A stretch of 64,000 bases of DNA from Desulforegula conservatrix Mb1Pa (GTDB lineage Bacteria > Desulfobacterota > Desulfobacteria > Desulfobacterales > Desulforegulaceae). Below are positions 16,818-24,089 of the stretch, piece after piece. How positions within the stretch are numbered: position 1 is the stretch's first letter; every line of letters starts with the position of its first letter. Both the position numbers and the translations under genes were made by a program. Under the pieces are notes generated by a model that was given only the letters and a program-made list of their open reading frames with translations, was not told the origin of the DNA and ran no database searches. The stretch covers positions 62,001-126,000 of the forward strand of contig NZ_AUEY01000001.1 of assembly GCF_000426225.1 (NCBI RefSeq), in the 5' to 3' direction.

Positions 16818-17615
16818 CTATTGGCGCAATGGTTTTATTGCATTGATAATTGCAGATAACACATAATCATTAATATTGTTGCCTGGCGCCCATTCTCTAA
16901 TAAATTTCCTGCTTTCATCCTTTGGAATAATTTTGATTTCTTTAAAACCTGAATTTTGAAGCATTTTTTTGATTTCAGGTATAGGGGAAGCGCCTGCAAT
17001 GCAACCAGTATAAAGAGCAATATTATGTTTTGTAGTTTCAGGAAATTCGGCAATTGCAACAATATCAGAAATAGCGATTCGGCCACCCGGCTTAAGCACC
17101 CGAAAAGTTTCATTAAAGACTTCTTGCTTGTCAGGGGAAAGATTTATAACACAGTTCGAGATGACAACATCGACCGAGTTATTATCAACAGGTAATTTCT
17201 CGATTTCACCAAAACGGAAGTCAACGTTTCCAAAACCTCCTTTTAATGCGTTTGCCCTGGCTTTGGAAATCATTTCAGGAGTCATGTCAACGCCAATCAC
17301 ATGGCCATTTCTGCCGACTTTTTCTGCCGCAATAAAACAGTCAAAACCTGCTCCGCTCCCAAGATCAAGAACTGTTTCTCCTGCCGTTAAAGAAGCAAAC
17401 GCATGAGGGTTTCCACACCCAAGACCGAGATTGGCACCTTCAGGAACAGACTTCATTTCAGCGTCCGAATACCCCATTCGCCCTGACATGTCAGGAGTTG
17501 GCGTTATGCAGCAGCCACCACCGCATCCACATCCTGACACAACTTCTCCATATTGATCTTTTACTGCTTGCCTGATTGCATCTCCATCCAGCCTGTCAAC
17601 ATTTTTTCTATCCAT
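16818..17615 (-). CDS. arsM: Arsenite S-adenosylmethionine methyltransferase
   Basis: 265 aa. The start is the ATG at 17615 that overlaps the acr3 stop (TAATG); a frame to 17636 has no ribosome site. The SAM-binding motif VLDLGSGAGFDCFIAAEKVG is at 82-101. The three As(III)-binding cysteines of ArsM are present at Cys67 (GLGCGNPHAF), Cys155 (VISNCVINL) and Cys205 (LYTGCIAGAS). An extra N-terminal cluster GCGCGGGCC (28-36) is common in bacterial ArsM. The enzyme methylates arsenite stepwise to methyl- and dimethylarsenicals using thiols in the cytoplasm. It is the last gene of the ars operon. Confidence 0.95.
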   Translation of the reverse strand: MDRKNVDRLDGDAIRQAVKDQYGEVVSGCGCGGGCCITPTPDMSGRMGYSDAEMKSVPEGANLGLGCGNPHAFASLTAGETVLDLGSGAGFDCFIAAEKVGRNGHVIGVDMTPEMISKARANALKGGFGNVDFRFGEIEKLPVDNNSVDVVISNCVINLSPDKQEVFNETFRVLKPGGRIAISDIVAIAEFPETTKHNIALYTGCIAGASPIPEIKKMLQNSGFKEIKIIPKDESRKFIREWAPGNNINDYVLSAIINAIKPLRQ

Positions 17616-18673
17616 TAGTTCTGGCCTTTGACCCATTCAAATTTATTTTTAAAATACAGGGCCACGTTAACAAGCCCTATAAGAACAGGAACCTCTACAA
17701 GCGGCCCTATTACTGCTGCAAAAGCCTGTCCGGAGTTCACTCCGAAAACAGCCACGGCCACAGCTATTGCAAGCTCAAAATTATTGGATGCGGCGGTAAA
17801 GCTTAAGGTCGCAGCCTGGCCATAATTTGCCCCTACTTTTTTGGACATAAAGAATGAAATAAGAAACATGACCACAAAATAAATGCACAGAGGAATCGCG
17901 ATTCTCACGACATCCAAGGGAAGCTGGACAATGTACTCACCTTTTAGTGAAAACATCACAAGAATCGTAAAAAGCAGGGCTATGAGGGTGACAGGGCTGA
18001 TTTTGGGTATGAATCTATGCTCGTACCATTCCTTGCCTTTAAGCTTTATGCCGACAAATCTTGAAATTATGCCTGCGATAAATGGAATGCCAAGATAGAT
18101 AAAAACGCTTTCAGCTATCTGTCCCATGGAAATATTCACAACAGCGCCGGAAAGCCCCATCAATTTCGGCAGAAAAGTAATAAAAAACCATGCGTACACA
18201 GAAAAAAACAGAACCTGAAAAATGGAATTGAATGCCACGAGTCCTGCGCAGTATTCGTTATCTCCGCCCGCAAGCTCGTTCCAGACAATGACCATGGCTA
18301 TGCATCTTGCAAGACCTATGAGAATAAGTCCCACCATGTATTCATGATGTCCTGAAAGAAAAGCTATGGACAGAAGGAACATCAGCACAGGCCCTACTAT
18401 CCAGTTCTGAACGAGGGAAAGGGCAAGAACCCTGAAATTCCTGAAAACGCTTCCAAGTTCTTCATATTTTACCTTGGCAAGGGGCGGATACATCATAAGA
18501 ATCAGGCCAATAGCAATTGGGATATTGGTTGTCCCTGCCTGGAAGAAATTTATGAAGTTCTTTACATTAGGGTAAACCCATCCGCCAAGAACTCCTGCAA
18601 GCATGGCGAGAAAGATCCAGAGAGTTAGATAGCGGTCAAGGAAAGATAATTTTTTTATAATAGTCGTTTCCAT
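17615..18673 (-). CDS. acr3: ACR3-family arsenite efflux permease
   Basis: 352 aa, ATG with GGAGG 4 nt upstream. About ten membrane helices. The family's essential cysteine lies in [17 protein letters not shown] (Cys124, followed by Glu133); the late [17 protein letters not shown] helix carries the second conserved Asn/Glu region. ACR3 exports As(OH)3 using the proton motive force, without an ATPase subunit, and no arsA is present here. Translation is coupled to arsM. A TIR-bounded element separates it from arsC. Confidence 0.95.
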
Positions 18674-18834: not shown

Positions 18835-19278
18835 TTAAAGATTTATCAGTACTTCAGGTAACGTTTCAACAAACGCCCTGATTTCATCCCTTACCCTTCT
18901 GTAGCAGTTCAGTTTTTCTTCTTCACCCTCAACTGCCTTTGCAAGCGCTGGAGGATCGTCAAAACCCACATGAACAACCTTTGCTTTTCCAGGAAAAAAA
19001 GGGCAGTTTTCATTTGCATGACCGCAGACTGTGACCACATAATCAAACTGAATATGAAGAAGGTCATTAACATTTTCTGACTTGTGGCCGGATATATCAA
19101 CGCCAGCTTCTGCCATGACCTTAACTGCATTGGGATTAAGACCGTGGGTTTCTATTCCTGCTGAATAAGATTCGACAACATCACCTTTAAGATGCTTTGC
19201 CCATCCTTCTGCCATCTGGCTTCTGCAAGAATTTCCTGTACACAGAAAAAGGATTTTCTTTTTTTTATTGTCAGTCAT
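18835..19278 (-). CDS. arsC: Thioredoxin-coupled arsenate reductase
   Basis: 147 aa, AAGGTG before the ATG. The low-molecular-weight phosphatase P-loop CTGNSCR holds nucleophilic Cys13 and Cys18; the redox pair Cys85 and Cys92 ([14 protein letters not shown]) is that of the Staphylococcus-type ArsC that is recycled by thioredoxin. It reduces As(V) to As(III), the substrate of the adjacent Acr3 and ArsM. The substrate and coupling are inferred from family residues and position. Confidence 0.95.
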
Positions 19279-19526: not shown

Positions 19527-20234
19527 CTAAAACCACTCCCATACTGAAACTTGAAAATACTGTTCCAGGATATAAAAAGCCCCTGCAAGAATAAAAACAG
19601 TACCTGTAATTCTCCTTGCCCAGATTTCAAAAACAGTCACTTTGTCAAAGGCATTTGCGACCTTGTTTGCGCCAAGGGCAACAAGAACGGCAAAACCTAT
19701 TACAGGAAGACCAGTAGCGAGTCCATAAACAGCAGGAAGCATTACTCCTGACTGAAATTTAAGCGCCACAGGAATAAGGCTTCCAAAAAAAAGAGCAGCC
19801 GAAACAGGACAGAAGGACAGCGCAAAGATAATTCCAAGAACTATGGCCCCGGCCAGCCCCATCTTTTTAATTCTTTCCTGGAAACCGGCACTTATTCCAC
19901 TCCCTGAAAAAAAACTGAATGATAGAGCTCCTGTCAGAACAAGCCCTGTTAAAATAAGAAGCGGCCCAAGAGCCTTGGGCATATAAGTCTGAAGGAAACT
20001 TGACACAGAAGGTGCTGAAAGCAAACTTGAGACAAGGGCTATTCCTATCAGAAGATAAGCAAAGGAACGACCGGCCGTGTATAGAACGCCTCCCATTAAA
20101 ACCCTTGACGGACTTGCCACGTCCTTTCCGACATAAGAAATTGCCGCAATATTTGTCGCAAGCGGGCATGGGCTTATGGATGTGAGAATTCCAAGCCAGA
20201 ATGCAGAACCAACGGCTATGGCAAATTCGTTCAT
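19527..20234 (-). CDS. arsG: ArsG-like (CcdA/DsbD-fold) aromatic arsenical efflux permease
   Basis: 235 aa with six membrane helices. Two cysteine-proline motifs, SISPCPLATN near residue 22 and SFCPVSAALF near 142, are those of CcdA/DsbD-like transmembrane thiol carriers. Family members next to ars genes are named ArsG and described as exporters of trivalent aromatic arsenicals. The start overlaps the arsF stop (TGATG), so the pair is coupled. An alternative reading is transfer of reducing equivalents to the periplasmic ArsF-like protein; the CcdA fold and the ArsF CXXC make that plausible. Confidence 0.8.
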   Translation of the reverse strand: MNEFAIAVGSAFWLGILTSISPCPLATNIAAISYVGKDVASPSRVLMGGVLYTAGRSFAYLLIGIALVSSLLSAPSVSSFLQTYMPKALGPLLILTGLVLTGALSFSFFSGSGISAGFQERIKKMGLAGAIVLGIIFALSFCPVSAALFFGSLIPVALKFQSGVMLPAVYGLATGLPVIGFAVLVALGANKVANAFDKVTVFEIWARRITGTVFILAGAFYILEQYFQVSVWEWF

Positions 20235-20755
20235 CAGCTTTTTCCCTCAATCATTTTCTTTGTTTCATCCCTGACATATTCGATGAATTTATCGTGGTCA
20301 CGCACAAGATTCCAGATCATATCCAGATTTTTCCATTTTACCTCTTTGCCATTAACTGTCTTAGAAAGAACAAGAGCCTTGCTGACAAGTGCGTAATCCC
20401 TGATATAATGACTGTTGCCATCTTGATCGACATTCAGGGGAATGAATTCCAGGGAGCCTTTTTTAATTTCTTCAGCAAATCCCTGATTGACAGCTTCTCC
20501 AGAGTATTCCTCAAGCTTCATGCAAGTTGGACAACGAACATTACCGTGAAAATAATATGCGATTACTTTAGCGCCTTCCTGTTTCTGTTGGACTTCGGAT
20601 GAAGTGGCTTTTGCATCTTTGGGAGCTTCTGATTTTAAAACTGCGATCGTTTTTTTATCCTCTGCAGTCGCTTTCCGGCTGTCAAAAGCCATGAAGCCGC
20701 CAAAAGCGACCAAAGCAATTAGGCCTAAAACCATCAATGATTTTATCTTTTTCAC
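20234..20755 (-). CDS. arsF: ArsF-like membrane-anchored thioredoxin-fold protein
   Basis: 173 aa from a GTG at 20755 that overlaps the upstream stop (TAGTG), with AAGGAG upstream. An N-terminal signal or anchor (SLMVLGLIALVAFGGFMAF) exports the domain. The body has a thioredoxin-like motif HGNVRCPTCMKLEEYS (Cys75, Cys78) and the pattern seen in proteins annotated as ArsF-family nitrophenyl reductase subunits. Its neighbour ArsG and the ars setting support that name. The reaction here is unproven: reduction of aromatic arsenicals and delivery of reductant are the two candidate roles. Confidence 0.75.
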   Translation of the reverse strand: MKKIKSLMVLGLIALVAFGGFMAFDSRKATAEDKKTIAVLKSEAPKDAKATSSEVQQKQEGAKVIAYYFHGNVRCPTCMKLEEYSGEAVNQGFAEEIKKGSLEFIPLNVDQDGNSHYIRDYALVSKALVLSKTVNGKEVKWKNLDMIWNLVRDHDKFIEYVRDETKKMIEGKS

Positions 20756-21141
20756 TAATATACTCCTTTTGAAATCAGCTTTGCTCCTGCTTCTGCAATT
20801 TTTGCCACAGCATCTTCTGTCACAGGAGATTCTCCTTTCTGAAAACCAAGATCAGAAACAAGCAGGTGTTCGAAGTTTTTAAATCCGGCTTCTTCAAGGC
20901 TTTTACTGGCGCAGTTCAAGGCGCAACCGTCTATGGCAAGTATTGCTGCGGCAGCCTCGGTGTTTTTCATTATTCCGGAAATCCTTGCGCCAATTCCTGC
21001 AAGGCAGAACATCTTGCCGTTCCCATCCCTTGTCATCTTTCTTGCTGCCTGATCAGAAAGTGCGCCGACATCTGCCGCGCCCGAACAGGCAAAAATCAAT
21101 TTTGGAGCTGTTGAACATTCGCATGCTTTAGATTCGCCCAT
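20755..21141 (-). CDS. DGC-domain putative zinc-binding protein
   Basis: 128 aa with a GGGGG site before the ATG. Cys-rich motifs in order: KACECSTAPKLIFACSGAADVG, MFCLAGIGARISG and the defining AIDGCALNCASKSLEEAG. This is the DGC domain, predicted to bind zinc, of unknown biochemical function and often found beside thioredoxin-like and ars genes in anaerobes. Its conserved cysteines could equally bind As(III). Its stop overlaps the arsF start. Confidence 0.8.
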   Translation of the reverse strand: MGESKACECSTAPKLIFACSGAADVGALSDQAARKMTRDGNGKMFCLAGIGARISGIMKNTEAAAAILAIDGCALNCASKSLEEAGFKNFEHLLVSDLGFQKGESPVTEDAVAKIAEAGAKLISKGVY

Positions 21142-21154
21142 ATTTACCCCCGCC

Positions 21155-21391
21155 TTAAATACCTGAAATTATTTTCTTAATTTCTTCAACCGTCGGAACC
21201 TTGCCAACAATCTTTACTGAACCGTCTATGGCAAGAGCGGGAGTGGTCATGACACCCATCTTCATGATGTCCCTTATGTCAGTAAGCTTCTCGATTTCAT
21301 AATCAGCGCCGAGCTGCTTTGCCGCTTCTTCAGCCTGTTTTGCCAGGGTGGAACATTTGGGGCATCCTGTTCCTAAAATCTGAATTTTCAT
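21155..21391 (-). CDS. Small thioredoxin-fold redox protein (redox-active disulfide protein 2 type)
   Basis: 78 aa from the ATG at 21391 with AAGGAG upstream; a longer frame to 21445 lacks this site. MKIQILGTGCPKCSTL carries the CXXC (Cys10, Cys13), and MGVMTTPALAIDG holds the cis-Pro loop. Such mini-thioredoxins sit beside arsenical permeases and DGC proteins in many anaerobes. It likely supplies thiols for arsenate reduction or for the permease branch. Confidence 0.85.
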   Translation of the reverse strand: MKIQILGTGCPKCSTLAKQAEEAAKQLGADYEIEKLTDIRDIMKMGVMTTPALAIDGSVKIVGKVPTVEEIKKIISGI

Positions 21392-21466: not shown

Positions 21467-22558
21467 TTAAAAAATCATATTAAAAAGGTATCCGACAAAA
21501 AGAATCCCTGTTCCAACAATACCGATGAAAGTAGCAATCAACCTCATTTTAAGAACCTTTCTGAGAATAACGGTTTCAGGAAGGGAAAGCCCTATCACCG
21601 CCATCATGAAAGCGAGGGCAGTGCCGAGTGCAGCTCCTTTGCCCACAAGCGCCTGAACAATCGGAATCATGCCTGCAGCATTGGAATACATAGGGATACC
21701 TATTATTACAGCCAGAGGCACAGACCACCATGTGCCCTTTCCCATTATTGAAGCCATGAAATCCTGGGGAACATAACCATGTATTCCGGCTCCTACAGCT
21801 ATGCCGGCAACAACGTAAGGCCAGACTTTAGCCACAATTTCACGAACAGCATCGATTCCGTAACGAATACGCTCTTCAAACGATATTCTCATATCTCCTG
21901 AATCAACCGCATTTGCTCCAGTTTCATAGACCCATTCTTCAACATATTTTTCCATTTTCAGCTTACCGATAACCCATCCAGAAAACATGGCGATAAAAAG
22001 ACCGGTACCCATATAAATCAAAGCGGCCTTCCACCCGAAAAGGCCAAAAAGAAGAACAAGCGCAACCTCATTAACCATCGGAGCCGAGATAAGAAATGAA
22101 AAAGTAACTCCAAGCGGAACCCCGGCAGTCACAAATCCTATGAACAATGGAACCGCAGAGCATGAACAGAAAGGGGTCACAATGCCAAGAAGCGCAGCAA
22201 GAACATTGCCTAAAGACTCCCGCTTTCCGGCAAGAAATTTTCTGGTCCGTTCTGGAGTAAAAAAAGATCTTATTATGCCAACCCCAAAAACCACTATCAC
22301 CAGAAGCATCAAAACCTTGGGAGTATCATAAACAAAAAAATTCAATGCGCTTCCGAGATGAGATTCAGGAGGAAGGCCTATCAATTTATAGGTAAACCAG
22401 TCTGCAAAAGGTTTCAGAAAAACGTATAGAGACAGCCAAGCAAGAATAAATAAAAAAAGCCTTAAAAAAATTATCCATAAGTTTTTTTTAAAACCCGCTT
22501 CAGAAACAGCTTCATTCTGATCTGTTGAAGCCGGAGTCCCAATAATTTGGTTGGACAT
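21467..22558 (-). CDS. ArsP/YraQ-type permease (DUF318)
   Basis: About 363 aa from the ATG at 22558 (GGGGGG upstream). Eight or more helices. The signature PFCSCSAVPLFIGFVTAGVPLG and SAPMVNEVALVLLFGLFGWK is that of the UPF0718/ArsP permease family, in which adjacent cysteines (here CSC) are implicated in trivalent organoarsenical export. It is the first structural gene after arsR and is preceded by a second ArsR-like dyad. Substrate (MAs(III), other metalloids) is inferred from context. Confidence 0.85.
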   Translation of the reverse strand: MSNQIIGTPASTDQNEAVSEAGFKKNLWIIFLRLFLFILAWLSLYVFLKPFADWFTYKLIGLPPESHLGSALNFFVYDTPKVLMLLVIVVFGVGIIRSFFTPERTRKFLAGKRESLGNVLAALLGIVTPFCSCSAVPLFIGFVTAGVPLGVTFSFLISAPMVNEVALVLLFGLFGWKAALIYMGTGLFIAMFSGWVIGKLKMEKYVEEWVYETGANAVDSGDMRISFEERIRYGIDAVREIVAKVWPYVVAGIAVGAGIHGYVPQDFMASIMGKGTWWSVPLAVIIGIPMYSNAAGMIPIVQALVGKGAALGTALAFMMAVIGLSLPETVILRKVLKMRLIATFIGIVGTGILFVGYLFNMIF

Positions 22559-22579
22559 TTTGCCCCCCACTCAATGGCT

Positions 22580-22599
22580 ATTTGCCAAAAAAGCCAAAT
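22580..22599 (-). promoter_or_regulatory. Second ArsR-type operator, between arsR and the permease gene
   Basis: ATTTGCCAAAAAAGCCAAAT is a 20-bp dyad with one mismatch per arm, the same length and half-sites as the dyad on the arsR promoter (ATTTGG-N8-CCAAAT). It lies about 20 bp upstream of the permease start. No clear promoter was seen with it. Confidence 0.5.
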
Positions 22600-22617
22600 A
22601 AAAAAGTTTTTAAAAAA

Positions 22618-22938
22618 TCACGCGATCATCTTCATGCGACAATCAGCCTCTGATTTTATTACCGCCTCTATGCAGCCCATGAAATTAAGAACGCATGGAA
22701 CCTTCAAACGATAGTAAACCTGCTGCCCCCGCTTTTCATCAACAACAATTCCAACCTGCTTCAAAATGGAAAGATGCTTTGAAATGGTTGAAAAATCATG
22801 CCCCACAAGATCGACAAACTCGCAAACGCATTTTTCCCCATGGGCAAGTTCTTCAATGATAAAAAGCCTTGTGGGATGGCCCATTGCTTTAAGTATTTTT
22901 GCTTTTGCTTCTATCAGTTCAGAATTTTTTACAGCCAT
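22618..22938 (-). CDS. arsR: ArsR/SmtB-family metalloid-responsive repressor
   Basis: 106 aa with a GGAG site. A winged helix runs from about residue 8 to 90: HPTRLFIIEELAHGEKCVCEF, then the recognition helix DFSTISKHLSILKQVGIVVDEKRGQQVYYRL. Cys37 and Cys39 (EKCVCEF) match the alpha-3 metal site of As(III)-sensing ArsR (CVC motif), and additional cysteines are at the C-terminal side (VPCVLNFMGC, DCRMKM). It would repress the operon until As(III) or a related species binds. First gene of the unit. Confidence 0.93.
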   Translation of the reverse strand: MAVKNSELIEAKAKILKAMGHPTRLFIIEELAHGEKCVCEFVDLVGHDFSTISKHLSILKQVGIVVDEKRGQQVYYRLKVPCVLNFMGCIEAVIKSEADCRMKMIA

Positions 22939-22956
22939 TTATTTCTCCATGTATTT

Positions 22957-22976
22957 ATTTGGTAGTTTAGCCAAAT
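22957..22976 (-). promoter_or_regulatory. ArsR operator on the ars promoter
   Basis: ATTTGGTAGTTTAGCCAAAT, a perfect 6-bp dyad with 8-bp spacer, 19 bp upstream of the arsR start and covering the proposed -10 box. Repeats of this half-site occur again at 22580-22599. Confidence 0.65.
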
Positions 22977-22993
22977 AACCATACAAATGTCAA
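22964..22993 (-). promoter_or_regulatory. Sigma70-type promoter of the ars operon
   Basis: On the minus strand TTGACA (22993-22988) and TAAACT (22969-22964) are separated by 18 bp, 25 bp upstream of the arsR ATG. The -35 is a perfect consensus. The -10 lies inside the ArsR dyad, so binding would block polymerase. Confidence 0.6.
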
Positions 22994-23031
22994 GAATGTT
23001 TTTAAATACAAATACTCCGATTGTCGCAGAA

Positions 23032-23805
23032 TCAGCTTTTCTTCTTCAAGGCCCTGATAATCAATAATAACCCGGCAAGCGCAAAAGGAATACTCAGCCA
23101 CTGCCCAACACTTATAGCAAAACCGGATTCATAGTCTGCCTGTTCAGTTTTTAAAAACTCCAGCGCAAAGCGTGCGGAAAAGACCAGAGCAAGAAAAAGA
23201 CCGGACAAAAATCCTCTGCGTTCCGAGTATTTCTTAATCCTGTAAAAGAAGAACAGTATCCAGAAAACAGCCATATAAGCCAAAGCCTCATAAATCTGAA
23301 CAGGATGCCTTGGCACCATGTCCACTCTTTCGAAAATGACCGCCCACCAGCCTTTAGTCTGAGTTCCAAGTATTTCTGAATTAAAAAAATTCCCTACGCG
23401 GATATACGAACCGCCAAGTGCCGTTGGGATGACCACTCGATCAAGAATCCACAGCAAATCCGGCATTCCGGGTTTCCTTGAATATAAAAACAGGGCCAGA
23501 ATTATCCCGATCGCGCCTCCGTGGCTCGCAAGCCCACCTTCCCAGATCTTCAAAATATCGAGAGGATTATGGAGATAATACAAAGGCTCATAAAAGATAC
23601 AGTGCCCAAGCCTTGCGCCTATTACTGTTCCTGCAAGCATATATGTAAAAAGTGATTCAAGCTCCTCAGCAGATCGTCCTTCTTGCCTGTAAATCCATTG
23701 CATAATCCAGAAGCCTGCAATAAAAGAGGTCGCAAAAAAAAGCCCGTACCATCTGAATGCAAGCGGGCCTATTCTCAAAATTTCAGGGTCAATATTCCAG
23801 ATCAT
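23032..23805 (-). CDS. lgt: Prolipoprotein diacylglyceryl transferase
   Basis: 257 aa. The family motifs are clear: FRWYGLFFATSFIAGF, IGARLGHCIFYEP, WEGGLASHGGAIG (the HGG(A/L) region), GSYIRVGNFFNSEILG (the Lgt signature with Arg and Asn) and PRHPVQIYEAL. Seven membrane helices. It transfers a diacylglyceryl group from phosphatidylglycerol to the lipobox Cys of prolipoproteins in the inner membrane. It follows arsR by 90 bp on the same strand but upstream of the ars promoter, so it is a separate unit. Confidence 0.95.
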   Translation of the reverse strand: MIWNIDPEILRIGPLAFRWYGLFFATSFIAGFWIMQWIYRQEGRSAEELESLFTYMLAGTVIGARLGHCIFYEPLYYLHNPLDILKIWEGGLASHGGAIGIILALFLYSRKPGMPDLLWILDRVVIPTALGGSYIRVGNFFNSEILGTQTKGWWAVIFERVDMVPRHPVQIYEALAYMAVFWILFFFYRIKKYSERRGFLSGLFLALVFSARFALEFLKTEQADYESGFAISVGQWLSIPFALAGLLLIIRALKKKS

Positions 23806-23837: not shown

Positions 23838-23972
23838 TTGATGGACTCGCAAAAAGTCGAAAAATGGCTTTAGCGTCATGCCGGGCTTGACCCGGTATCC
23901 AGTATTTTCAGCTACTTCTGGATTCCGGCCTGCGCCGGAATGACGAAAATCGTACTTTTTGCGACTTTGTCA
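23838..23972. repeat. Dispersed MITE-like repeat, copy 4
   Basis: 135 bp from TTGATGGACTCGCAAAAAG to CTTTTTGCGACTTTGTCA. The inner modules GTCATGCCGGGCTTGACCCG and GATTCCGGCCTGCGCCGGAA appear in the opposite order to copy 1. Confidence 0.75.
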
Positions 23973-24089
23973 TATTTAACAAGCAACCAAAGCCCCTCCG
24001 GGAGGCAGAGACACGTTAGTATATAATCACAACCAGCACAACTTTAACAGATTGCATCCTTGTTCATGATTTTTTAATTCCCGAGCAAC

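Follow-up and report, generated by a model that had tools for sequence, protein, structure and literature searches.

Comparative analysis of an ars operon from Desulforegula conservatrix Mb1Pa suggests that the operator lying just past arsR, in conjunction with a T-run that precedes it, is a repressor-dependent terminator. Such a device, consisting of a roadblock and a U-tract, would halt read-through into the efflux genes until metal is sensed, and we put the probability of this reading at roughly 65%. The operon lies in the window studied here, a stretch of 64,000 nucleotides (contig NZ_AUEY01000001.1, positions 62,001 to 126,000), and sequence comparison with relatives showed that both sites are genuine and recur, that the second is without a promoter, and that a T-run stands before it, on a consistent side and at a nearly constant distance. 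The elements around arsR are as follows.

22957..22976, minus strand: operator 1, ATTTGG-N8-CCAAAT over the -10 hexamer (pattern match and matrix score)
22580..22599, minus strand: operator 2, ATTTGG-N8-GCAAAT in the arsR/permease gap (pattern match and matrix score)
22988..22993, minus strand: -35 hexamer TTGACA of the arsR promoter (promoter scan; its offset matches the upstream sites of relatives)
22964..22969, minus strand: -10 hexamer TAAACT, within operator 1 (promoter scan)
22612..22617, minus strand: T-run 1 (T6), directly after the arsR stop codon, ending 22 bp before the center of operator 2
22600..22605, minus strand: T-run 2 (T6), adjoining operator 2 (T-run count)

The two dyads had been described in the earlier note, and both their sequences and their positions were confirmed. 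On the coding (minus) strand, operator 1 reads TTATTTGG-CTAAACTA-CCAAATAA (24-mer 22955-22978) and operator 2 reads TTATTTGG-CTTTTTTG-GCAAATAG (24-mer 22578-22601); the two are 377 bp apart and identical in 11 of the 12 named arm bases. That operator 1 covers the -10 of the arsR promoter, as that note proposed, was borne out by the promoter scan, in which TTGACA-N18-TAAACT is the sole promoter-like match in 22400-23050 and has its -10 inside the dyad. Operator 2 is situated inside the transcribed unit, 3' of the arsR stop codon, with arsR and the permease gene running in the same direction. The scan of 22400-23050 retrieved no terminator-like match, and a sigma-70-type scan found no promoter-like match near operator 2 (22560-22640). 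With the window excluded from training, operators 1 and 2 score 30.9 and 26.8 bits, respectively, against a matrix built from relatives, and operator 2 ranks fourth by this score among 98 downstream regions. The evidential weight of the dyads comes from this position and from the relatives rather than from the frequency of the bare pattern, which shows no enrichment: allowing for 2 mismatches, the window has 12 matches versus 22.9 expected. Across the whole genome, 11 places match with at most 1 mismatch, versus 5 for the reversed pattern. The proposed genome search for ATTTGG-N8-CCAAAT did yield one more perfect match (C1:48775-48794), but it falls within a reading frame of 441 aa, at its 3' end, and is presumably due to chance.

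The repressor and the genes that follow operator 2 were identified by profile searches.

22618..22938, minus strand: arsR, an ArsR/SmtB-family repressor of 106 aa (PF01022, 43.9 bits, cut-off 22; NF033788, 87.1 bits, cut-off 55)
21467..22558, minus strand: ArsP_1-family permease, the first gene past operator 2 (PF03773, 254.3 bits)
21155..21391, minus strand: arsE, an MTH895/ArsE-type thioredoxin-like protein (TIGR00412, 112.3 bits)
20755..21141, minus strand: DGC-domain protein (PF08859, 104.7 bits)
20234..20755, minus strand: arsF-family protein (NF040494, 113.6 bits)
19527..20234, minus strand: arsG-family permease (NF040495, 287.2 bits)
18835..19278, minus strand: arsenate-reductase-like protein of the LMWP type (PF01451, 71.8 bits; TIGR02691, 160.2 bits, under the cut-off of 174.3)
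17615..18673, minus strand: acr3 arsenite efflux transporter (TIGR00832, 455.6 bits)

The regulator is thus an ArsR/SmtB-family member with a dyad over its own promoter, and its translation displays the motif Cys37-Val-Cys39. The gene order on the minus strand, arsR, ArsP_1 permease, arsE, DGC protein, arsF, arsG, arsenate-reductase-like gene, and acr3, is reminiscent of the arsEFG-type organoarsenical resistance operons, with which the window shares homologs of arsE, arsF, and arsG and a CVC-type ArsR. It goes beyond them in adding the ArsP_1 permease, the DGC protein, the arsenate-reductase-like protein, and acr3. The Shewanella relatives possess the second site only. The Rfam search gave a single match, outside the feature and below threshold, to RF02748 FtrB (34.8 bits versus a gathering score of 66) at 23852-23973 on the minus strand, between an lgt-like gene and the next; it has the look of a dispersed repeat bearing inverted arms, and not of that sRNA.

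The relatives were collected in two sets. The first combined 30 of the 55 loci of one search with 71 of another and the window (102 loci, or 98 without 4 duplicates), leaving out 25 of the 55 (L038-L062), which are of low identity except for one. The second comprised 124 loci, namely, 107 places picked to favor different genera and 17 new ones, of which 115 were retained after 9 duplicates were dropped; its families already had members in the first set, so that it adds new sequence without opening up another branch of the tree of life. The scoring matrix, derived from 62 distinct upstream sites other than that of the window, was run across 93 bases beginning at the stop codon, a second site being defined as one within 90 nt past the arsR stop, and dinucleotide shuffles served as controls. 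Across both sets, 169 of 213 arsR loci have an upstream site, and the half-site, whose absence before orthologous arsR genes had been named as grounds for discarding the proposal, is therefore present before most of them. A second site occurs within 90 nt of the arsR stop in 109 of the 213 loci; both sites flank arsR in 94, and 75 have the upstream site alone. In the first set, 34 of 98 downstream regions score at least 8 bits, versus a mean of 0.41 in the shuffles, and the scores fall into two groups separated by a gap between 2.1 and 8.0 bits; at 7 bits, 35 of 98 loci have a second site, and 23 of these also have a strong (16-bit) upstream one. The second set displays second sites in 74 of 115 loci (shuffles: mean, 0.17; maximum, 2). 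This recurrence upholds the view of the earlier note that the second dyad is an ArsR operator like the first, and the sequence evidence supports operator 2 as a site of the same kind as operator 1; we consider it very likely to be bound by the ArsR of the window.

The arms of the second sites are strongly conserved, with TTTGG and CCAA near 0.9 at most positions in the first set. Furthermore, upstream and second-site arms are more alike within a locus (12.16/16) than across loci (11.11/16; 0 of 5,000 permutations), as expected if one protein reads both sites, although relatedness alone would also be expected to produce such likeness. Mapping of the second site onto a tree of 98 ArsR proteins yielded 14 gains or losses, at least 5 of which are forced by well-supported branches. 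In nine Shewanella loci (L026, L028-L033, L035, and L036) the sole recognized operator lies after arsR and before arsE; these nine have neither an upstream site nor a canonical promoter at the second site. In another five loci the site is over 90 nt past the stop, mostly without a T-run, although inspection by eye shows a long one in L105. A different arrangement is seen in L019, where two operators precede arsR in tandem, at distances of about 90 and 46 bases, one of them lying upstream of the -35 and the other overlapping the -10.

Promoter elements distinguish the two positions sharply. At upstream sites there is typically a TTGACA, and the dyad spacer holds a TA...T core; second sites are without these: a -35 matching in at least 5 of 6 positions accompanies 113 of 140 upstream sites versus 1 of 100 second sites outside Shewanella and 1 of 9 within it, and the -35 together with the -10 core is found at 77 of 140 upstream sites versus 0 of 100 and 0 of 9. 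The second site is, by this comparison, an operator without a sigma-70 promoter. The earlier note had offered repression of an internal promoter as one function for it, by which operator 2 would control the efflux genes apart from arsR. The nine Shewanella loci, whose downstream genes must somehow be controlled from a post-arsR site, speak for this idea, as does the restriction of the promoter scan to the sigma-70 type. The lack of a promoter-like match near 22560-22640 and of paired elements at the second sites of relatives speaks against it, and we regard it as improbable. The roadblock that the same note proposed fits the sequence much better: the operator lies past the transcription start within a transcribed unit, and no sigma-70 promoter overlaps it.

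A second feature of these sites, which adds to the earlier note, is a T-run, defined as 5 or more consecutive T's within the 22 nt preceding the 24-mer. It was first found by aligning the second sites of the first set, where it precedes 23 of the 26 outside Shewanella (shuffles of 26: mean, 3.5; maximum, 9) and 4 of the 9 in Shewanella, along with 6 of 69 upstream sites, and it then held in the second set, in which it precedes 63 of 74 second sites (shuffles: mean, 12.8; maximum, 25) and 1 of 95 upstream sites. Its orientation is consistent across both sets: 90 of 109 second sites have a run on the upstream side and 1 of 109 on the downstream side, while 19 of the 109 have no run of 5 before them. 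When near-identical contexts are grouped, a run is found in 60.3 of 74 groups. Its end lies 17, 18, or 19 bp from the dyad center in 83 of 90 cases, and its distance to the 24-mer has a median of 6 and an interquartile range of 5 to 6. As this distance is steady while the operator lies anywhere from 10 to 87 nt past the stop codon, the spacing belongs to the operator and not to the stop. The T-run and operator pattern is not specific on a genome-wide scale: in 395 genomes, 6 of the 45 matches among those listed, with overlapping ones counted, are known second sites. T-runs also follow arsR without a recognized second site in 8 of 63 loci of the first set and 16 of 41 of the second; the latter have at least 5 T's within 40 nt of the arsR stop, and their operators may have drifted beyond the matrix.

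An ordinary intrinsic terminator or attenuator after arsR, in which the T-run alone matters, would be suggested by the GC-rich stems found directly before the run in some loci (L302, L310, L311, and L249). However, a stem precedes the run in only 12 of 90 cases (shuffles: mean, 6.2; maximum, 13), the window has neither such a stem nor any terminator-like match, and the run keeps its distance to the operator and not to a stem, all of which makes this explanation highly unlikely. In these four loci, and likewise in L278 and L286, a hairpin terminator and an operator sit side by side, the stem lying directly before the T-run.

The same layout was encountered in a second ArsR/SmtB subclass. Among 30 loci of other ArsR/SmtB proteins, 28 of them readable, inspection by eye indicated a T-run and second site in two (L335 and L338). 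The upstream sites of the subclass are close to ATATATGAACATATGTTCATATAT, an operator different from the ArsR dyad. In 70 of its loci (69 with enough sequence), which include the two prompting ones, L335 and L338 (= L347), 14 of 69 second sites exceed the threshold (shuffle means, 1.16 at 4 bits and 0.29 at 8 bits), and 12 of these 14 have a T-run (L335, L338, L348, L349, L353, L354, L360, L361, L368, L378, L380, and L415; shuffles: mean, 1.9; maximum, 7). The run ends 18 bp from the center in 9 of the 12 and at 16, 17, and 20 bp in the others; without the two prompting loci, T-runs occur in 10 of 12, and 8 of these 10 end at 18 bp. A looser first pass over the subclass with a typed consensus had found 12 of 70 second sites at 11/16 or better (shuffles: mean, 1.6; maximum, 7), 11 of the 12 with T-runs and 8 of those 11 at 16 to 20 bp. 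That unrelated operators share one spacing suggests that RNA polymerase sets it.

On the basis of these observations, we infer binding, stopping, release, and benefit along the following lines. Operator 1 would be an ordinary autoregulatory site, where arsenite-free ArsR masks the -10 of the arsR promoter. Polymerases that escape repression would read through arsR and run into the ArsR sitting on operator 2, which would act as a roadblock to them. At the T-run just upstream, the stopped complex might backtrack or fall apart because a U-rich RNA-DNA hybrid is weak. Leaky transcription would thereby end past arsR, with the repressor still made and the efflux genes silent, and arsenite would free both sites together, so that the whole operon would be read. 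The T-runs of the window depart from the usual spacing, one ending 22 bp from the center in place of 17 to 19 and the other adjoining the site, and for this reason our confidence in the roadblock is moderate as far as the window goes, and the part of the T-run is claimed mainly for the family. Operator 2 is likely to work as a roadblock; a role for the T-run in stopping or release across the family is somewhat less assured, if still probable, and we would extend it to the off-spacing runs of the window with more reserve. More generally, there is perhaps an even chance that bacteria possess a two-part, metal-gated terminator, in which a run of about 5 to 10 T's is followed by the operator of the just-transcribed repressor, with its dyad center about 18 bp further on. 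Bound repressor would hold the polymerase at the U-tract, transcription would end past the repressor gene, and the metal would lift the block. Under this generalization, the spacing would be set by the polymerase and not by the repressor, as two ArsR/SmtB subclasses with unrelated operators keep it.

A simpler version would have ArsR stop the polymerase and Mfd or Rho remove it, with the T-run serving otherwise, for instance, in DNA stiffness or bending or in polymerase pausing. Plain roadblocks of this kind are described for LacI, CcpA, and CodY, ArsR sites are described as acting so in engineered circuits, and the off-spacing runs of the window agree with it. It nevertheless leaves unexplained both the orientation of the T-runs (before 90 of the 109 second sites, after 1) and the 17- to 19-bp spacing in two subclasses with different operators, and we consider it unlikely as the full account.

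A further explanation places the signal in the RNA: the transcribed palindrome would form a hairpin and the preceding U-run a cleavage site, such that the mRNA is cut after arsR and its parts decay differently. Small hairpins can indeed be drawn at the second sites (-2.1 to -12.1 kcal/mol among the 25 first-set loci listed; -5.8 kcal/mol in the window). However, the hairpin of the window has a G-G mismatch, the arms keep the sequence of the repressor site and not mere pairing, they resemble the upstream site of their own locus, and a fixed spacing of 17 to 19 bp is not expected of a cleavage site. We therefore judge this explanation very unlikely. Another possibility is DNA looping, in which ArsR on both sites would hold a repression loop, of 377 bp in the window. 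Sites of like strength do flank arsR in the 94 loci, but the two sites show no helical phasing (89 loci; R = 0.12; p about 0.30), a dimer of an ArsR/SmtB protein binds one site, and the T-run is left unexplained; looping thus appears extremely improbable.

The proposed terminator resembles several known systems in part. In 2003 work on bioreporters described in PMC3918153 and PMC3690029, a second ArsR site engineered after arsR lowered the background without arsenite by blocking read-through. As in the window, that second operator sits between arsR and the controlled gene; those constructs, however, are man-made from E. coli R773 parts, whereas the layout here is natural and recurrent, and the set-distance T-run found here receives no mention in the available portions of these two sources. 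ArsR is counted among roadblock repressors in PMC10310618. The bacterial roadblocks of LacI, PurR, CcpA, and CodY (PMC10310618 and PMC4132739) likewise have a repressor within the transcribed region that stops RNA polymerase, as proposed here, but the accessible sections of these papers credit release mainly to Mfd, which accounts for about 90% of termination and release at the E. coli LacI roadblock (PMC4132739), and mention no conserved T-run placed at a constant spacing before the operator. Closest in the order of its parts, a T-rich stretch followed by a protein roadblock, is the Pol I terminator (PMC12366685), in which the T-rich sequence upstream of the Reb1/Nsi1 site forces irreversible backtracking and lowers read-through. 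A T-rich stretch at a set distance before a protein site is likewise found across the arsR family, the window deviating at 22 bp. That terminator differs in working on a eukaryotic polymerase, in being constitutive, and in its need for an RNA hairpin before the T-rich part for efficient release; at the ArsR second sites, stems before the T-run are not clearly enriched (12 of 90, within the shuffle range given above). Yeast Pol I facing a roadblock and T-rich DNA without a hairpin was stopped but not released within one minute, according to the same source. Given this result and the share of Mfd at LacI, the T-run need not be what releases the polymerase.

The position of the stopped polymerase offers another point of comparison. 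Pol I stops 15 bp before the Reb1 site (PMC12366685). If a polymerase stopped 15 bp before the edge of the 24-mer, the RNA end would not quite reach a typical T-run, unless the edge of ArsR lies inside the 24-mer. Polymerase meeting EcoRI Q111 is reported to halt 14 bp ahead of the 6-bp site, or some 17 bp from the center of that site, a distance that would fit an RNA end at the T-run.

If correct, the repressor-dependent terminator would resolve a conflict inherent to autorepressed operons, in which the repressor must be made and yet leaky transcription also reads the genes meant to be silent: a post-repressor site that ends read-through only under bound repressor meets both needs, and builders of biosensors did likewise by hand. 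The part added by sequence comparison is the set-distance T-run, which for bacteria does not appear in the accessible text of PMC3918153, PMC3690029, PMC10310618, or PMC4132739. It gives a testable statement on how a protein-blocked bacterial RNA polymerase is released, a process for which Mfd is the main factor described in these sources, and it would offer a compact ligand-controlled terminator to synthetic circuits. The literature search found neither a natural second ArsR operator after arsR nor a set-distance T-run before a bacterial roadblock, and as subscription journals lay mostly outside its coverage, this is weak evidence of novelty.

The device may also extend to other autorepressors, such as MarR proteins. 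Searches with CsoR- and BlaI-type regulators (36 loci, of which 7 have a T-run no more than 50 nt from the stop) yielded nothing firm; the only lookalike with a shared motif, the MarR-like L449, was picked out by eye and at 14/18 is not above the best shuffle. Among the 19 loci of its relatives, p is <0.01 in two, L458 (T7 at 16 bp) and L460 (T4 at 20 bp), and near 0.02 in L453 and L456. These MarR-type loci are suggestive only of a shared device. In L458, L453, L456, and, by eye, L465, the MarR-type gene is followed by T7 and then, 16 to 21 bp on, by a copy of the upstream dyad.
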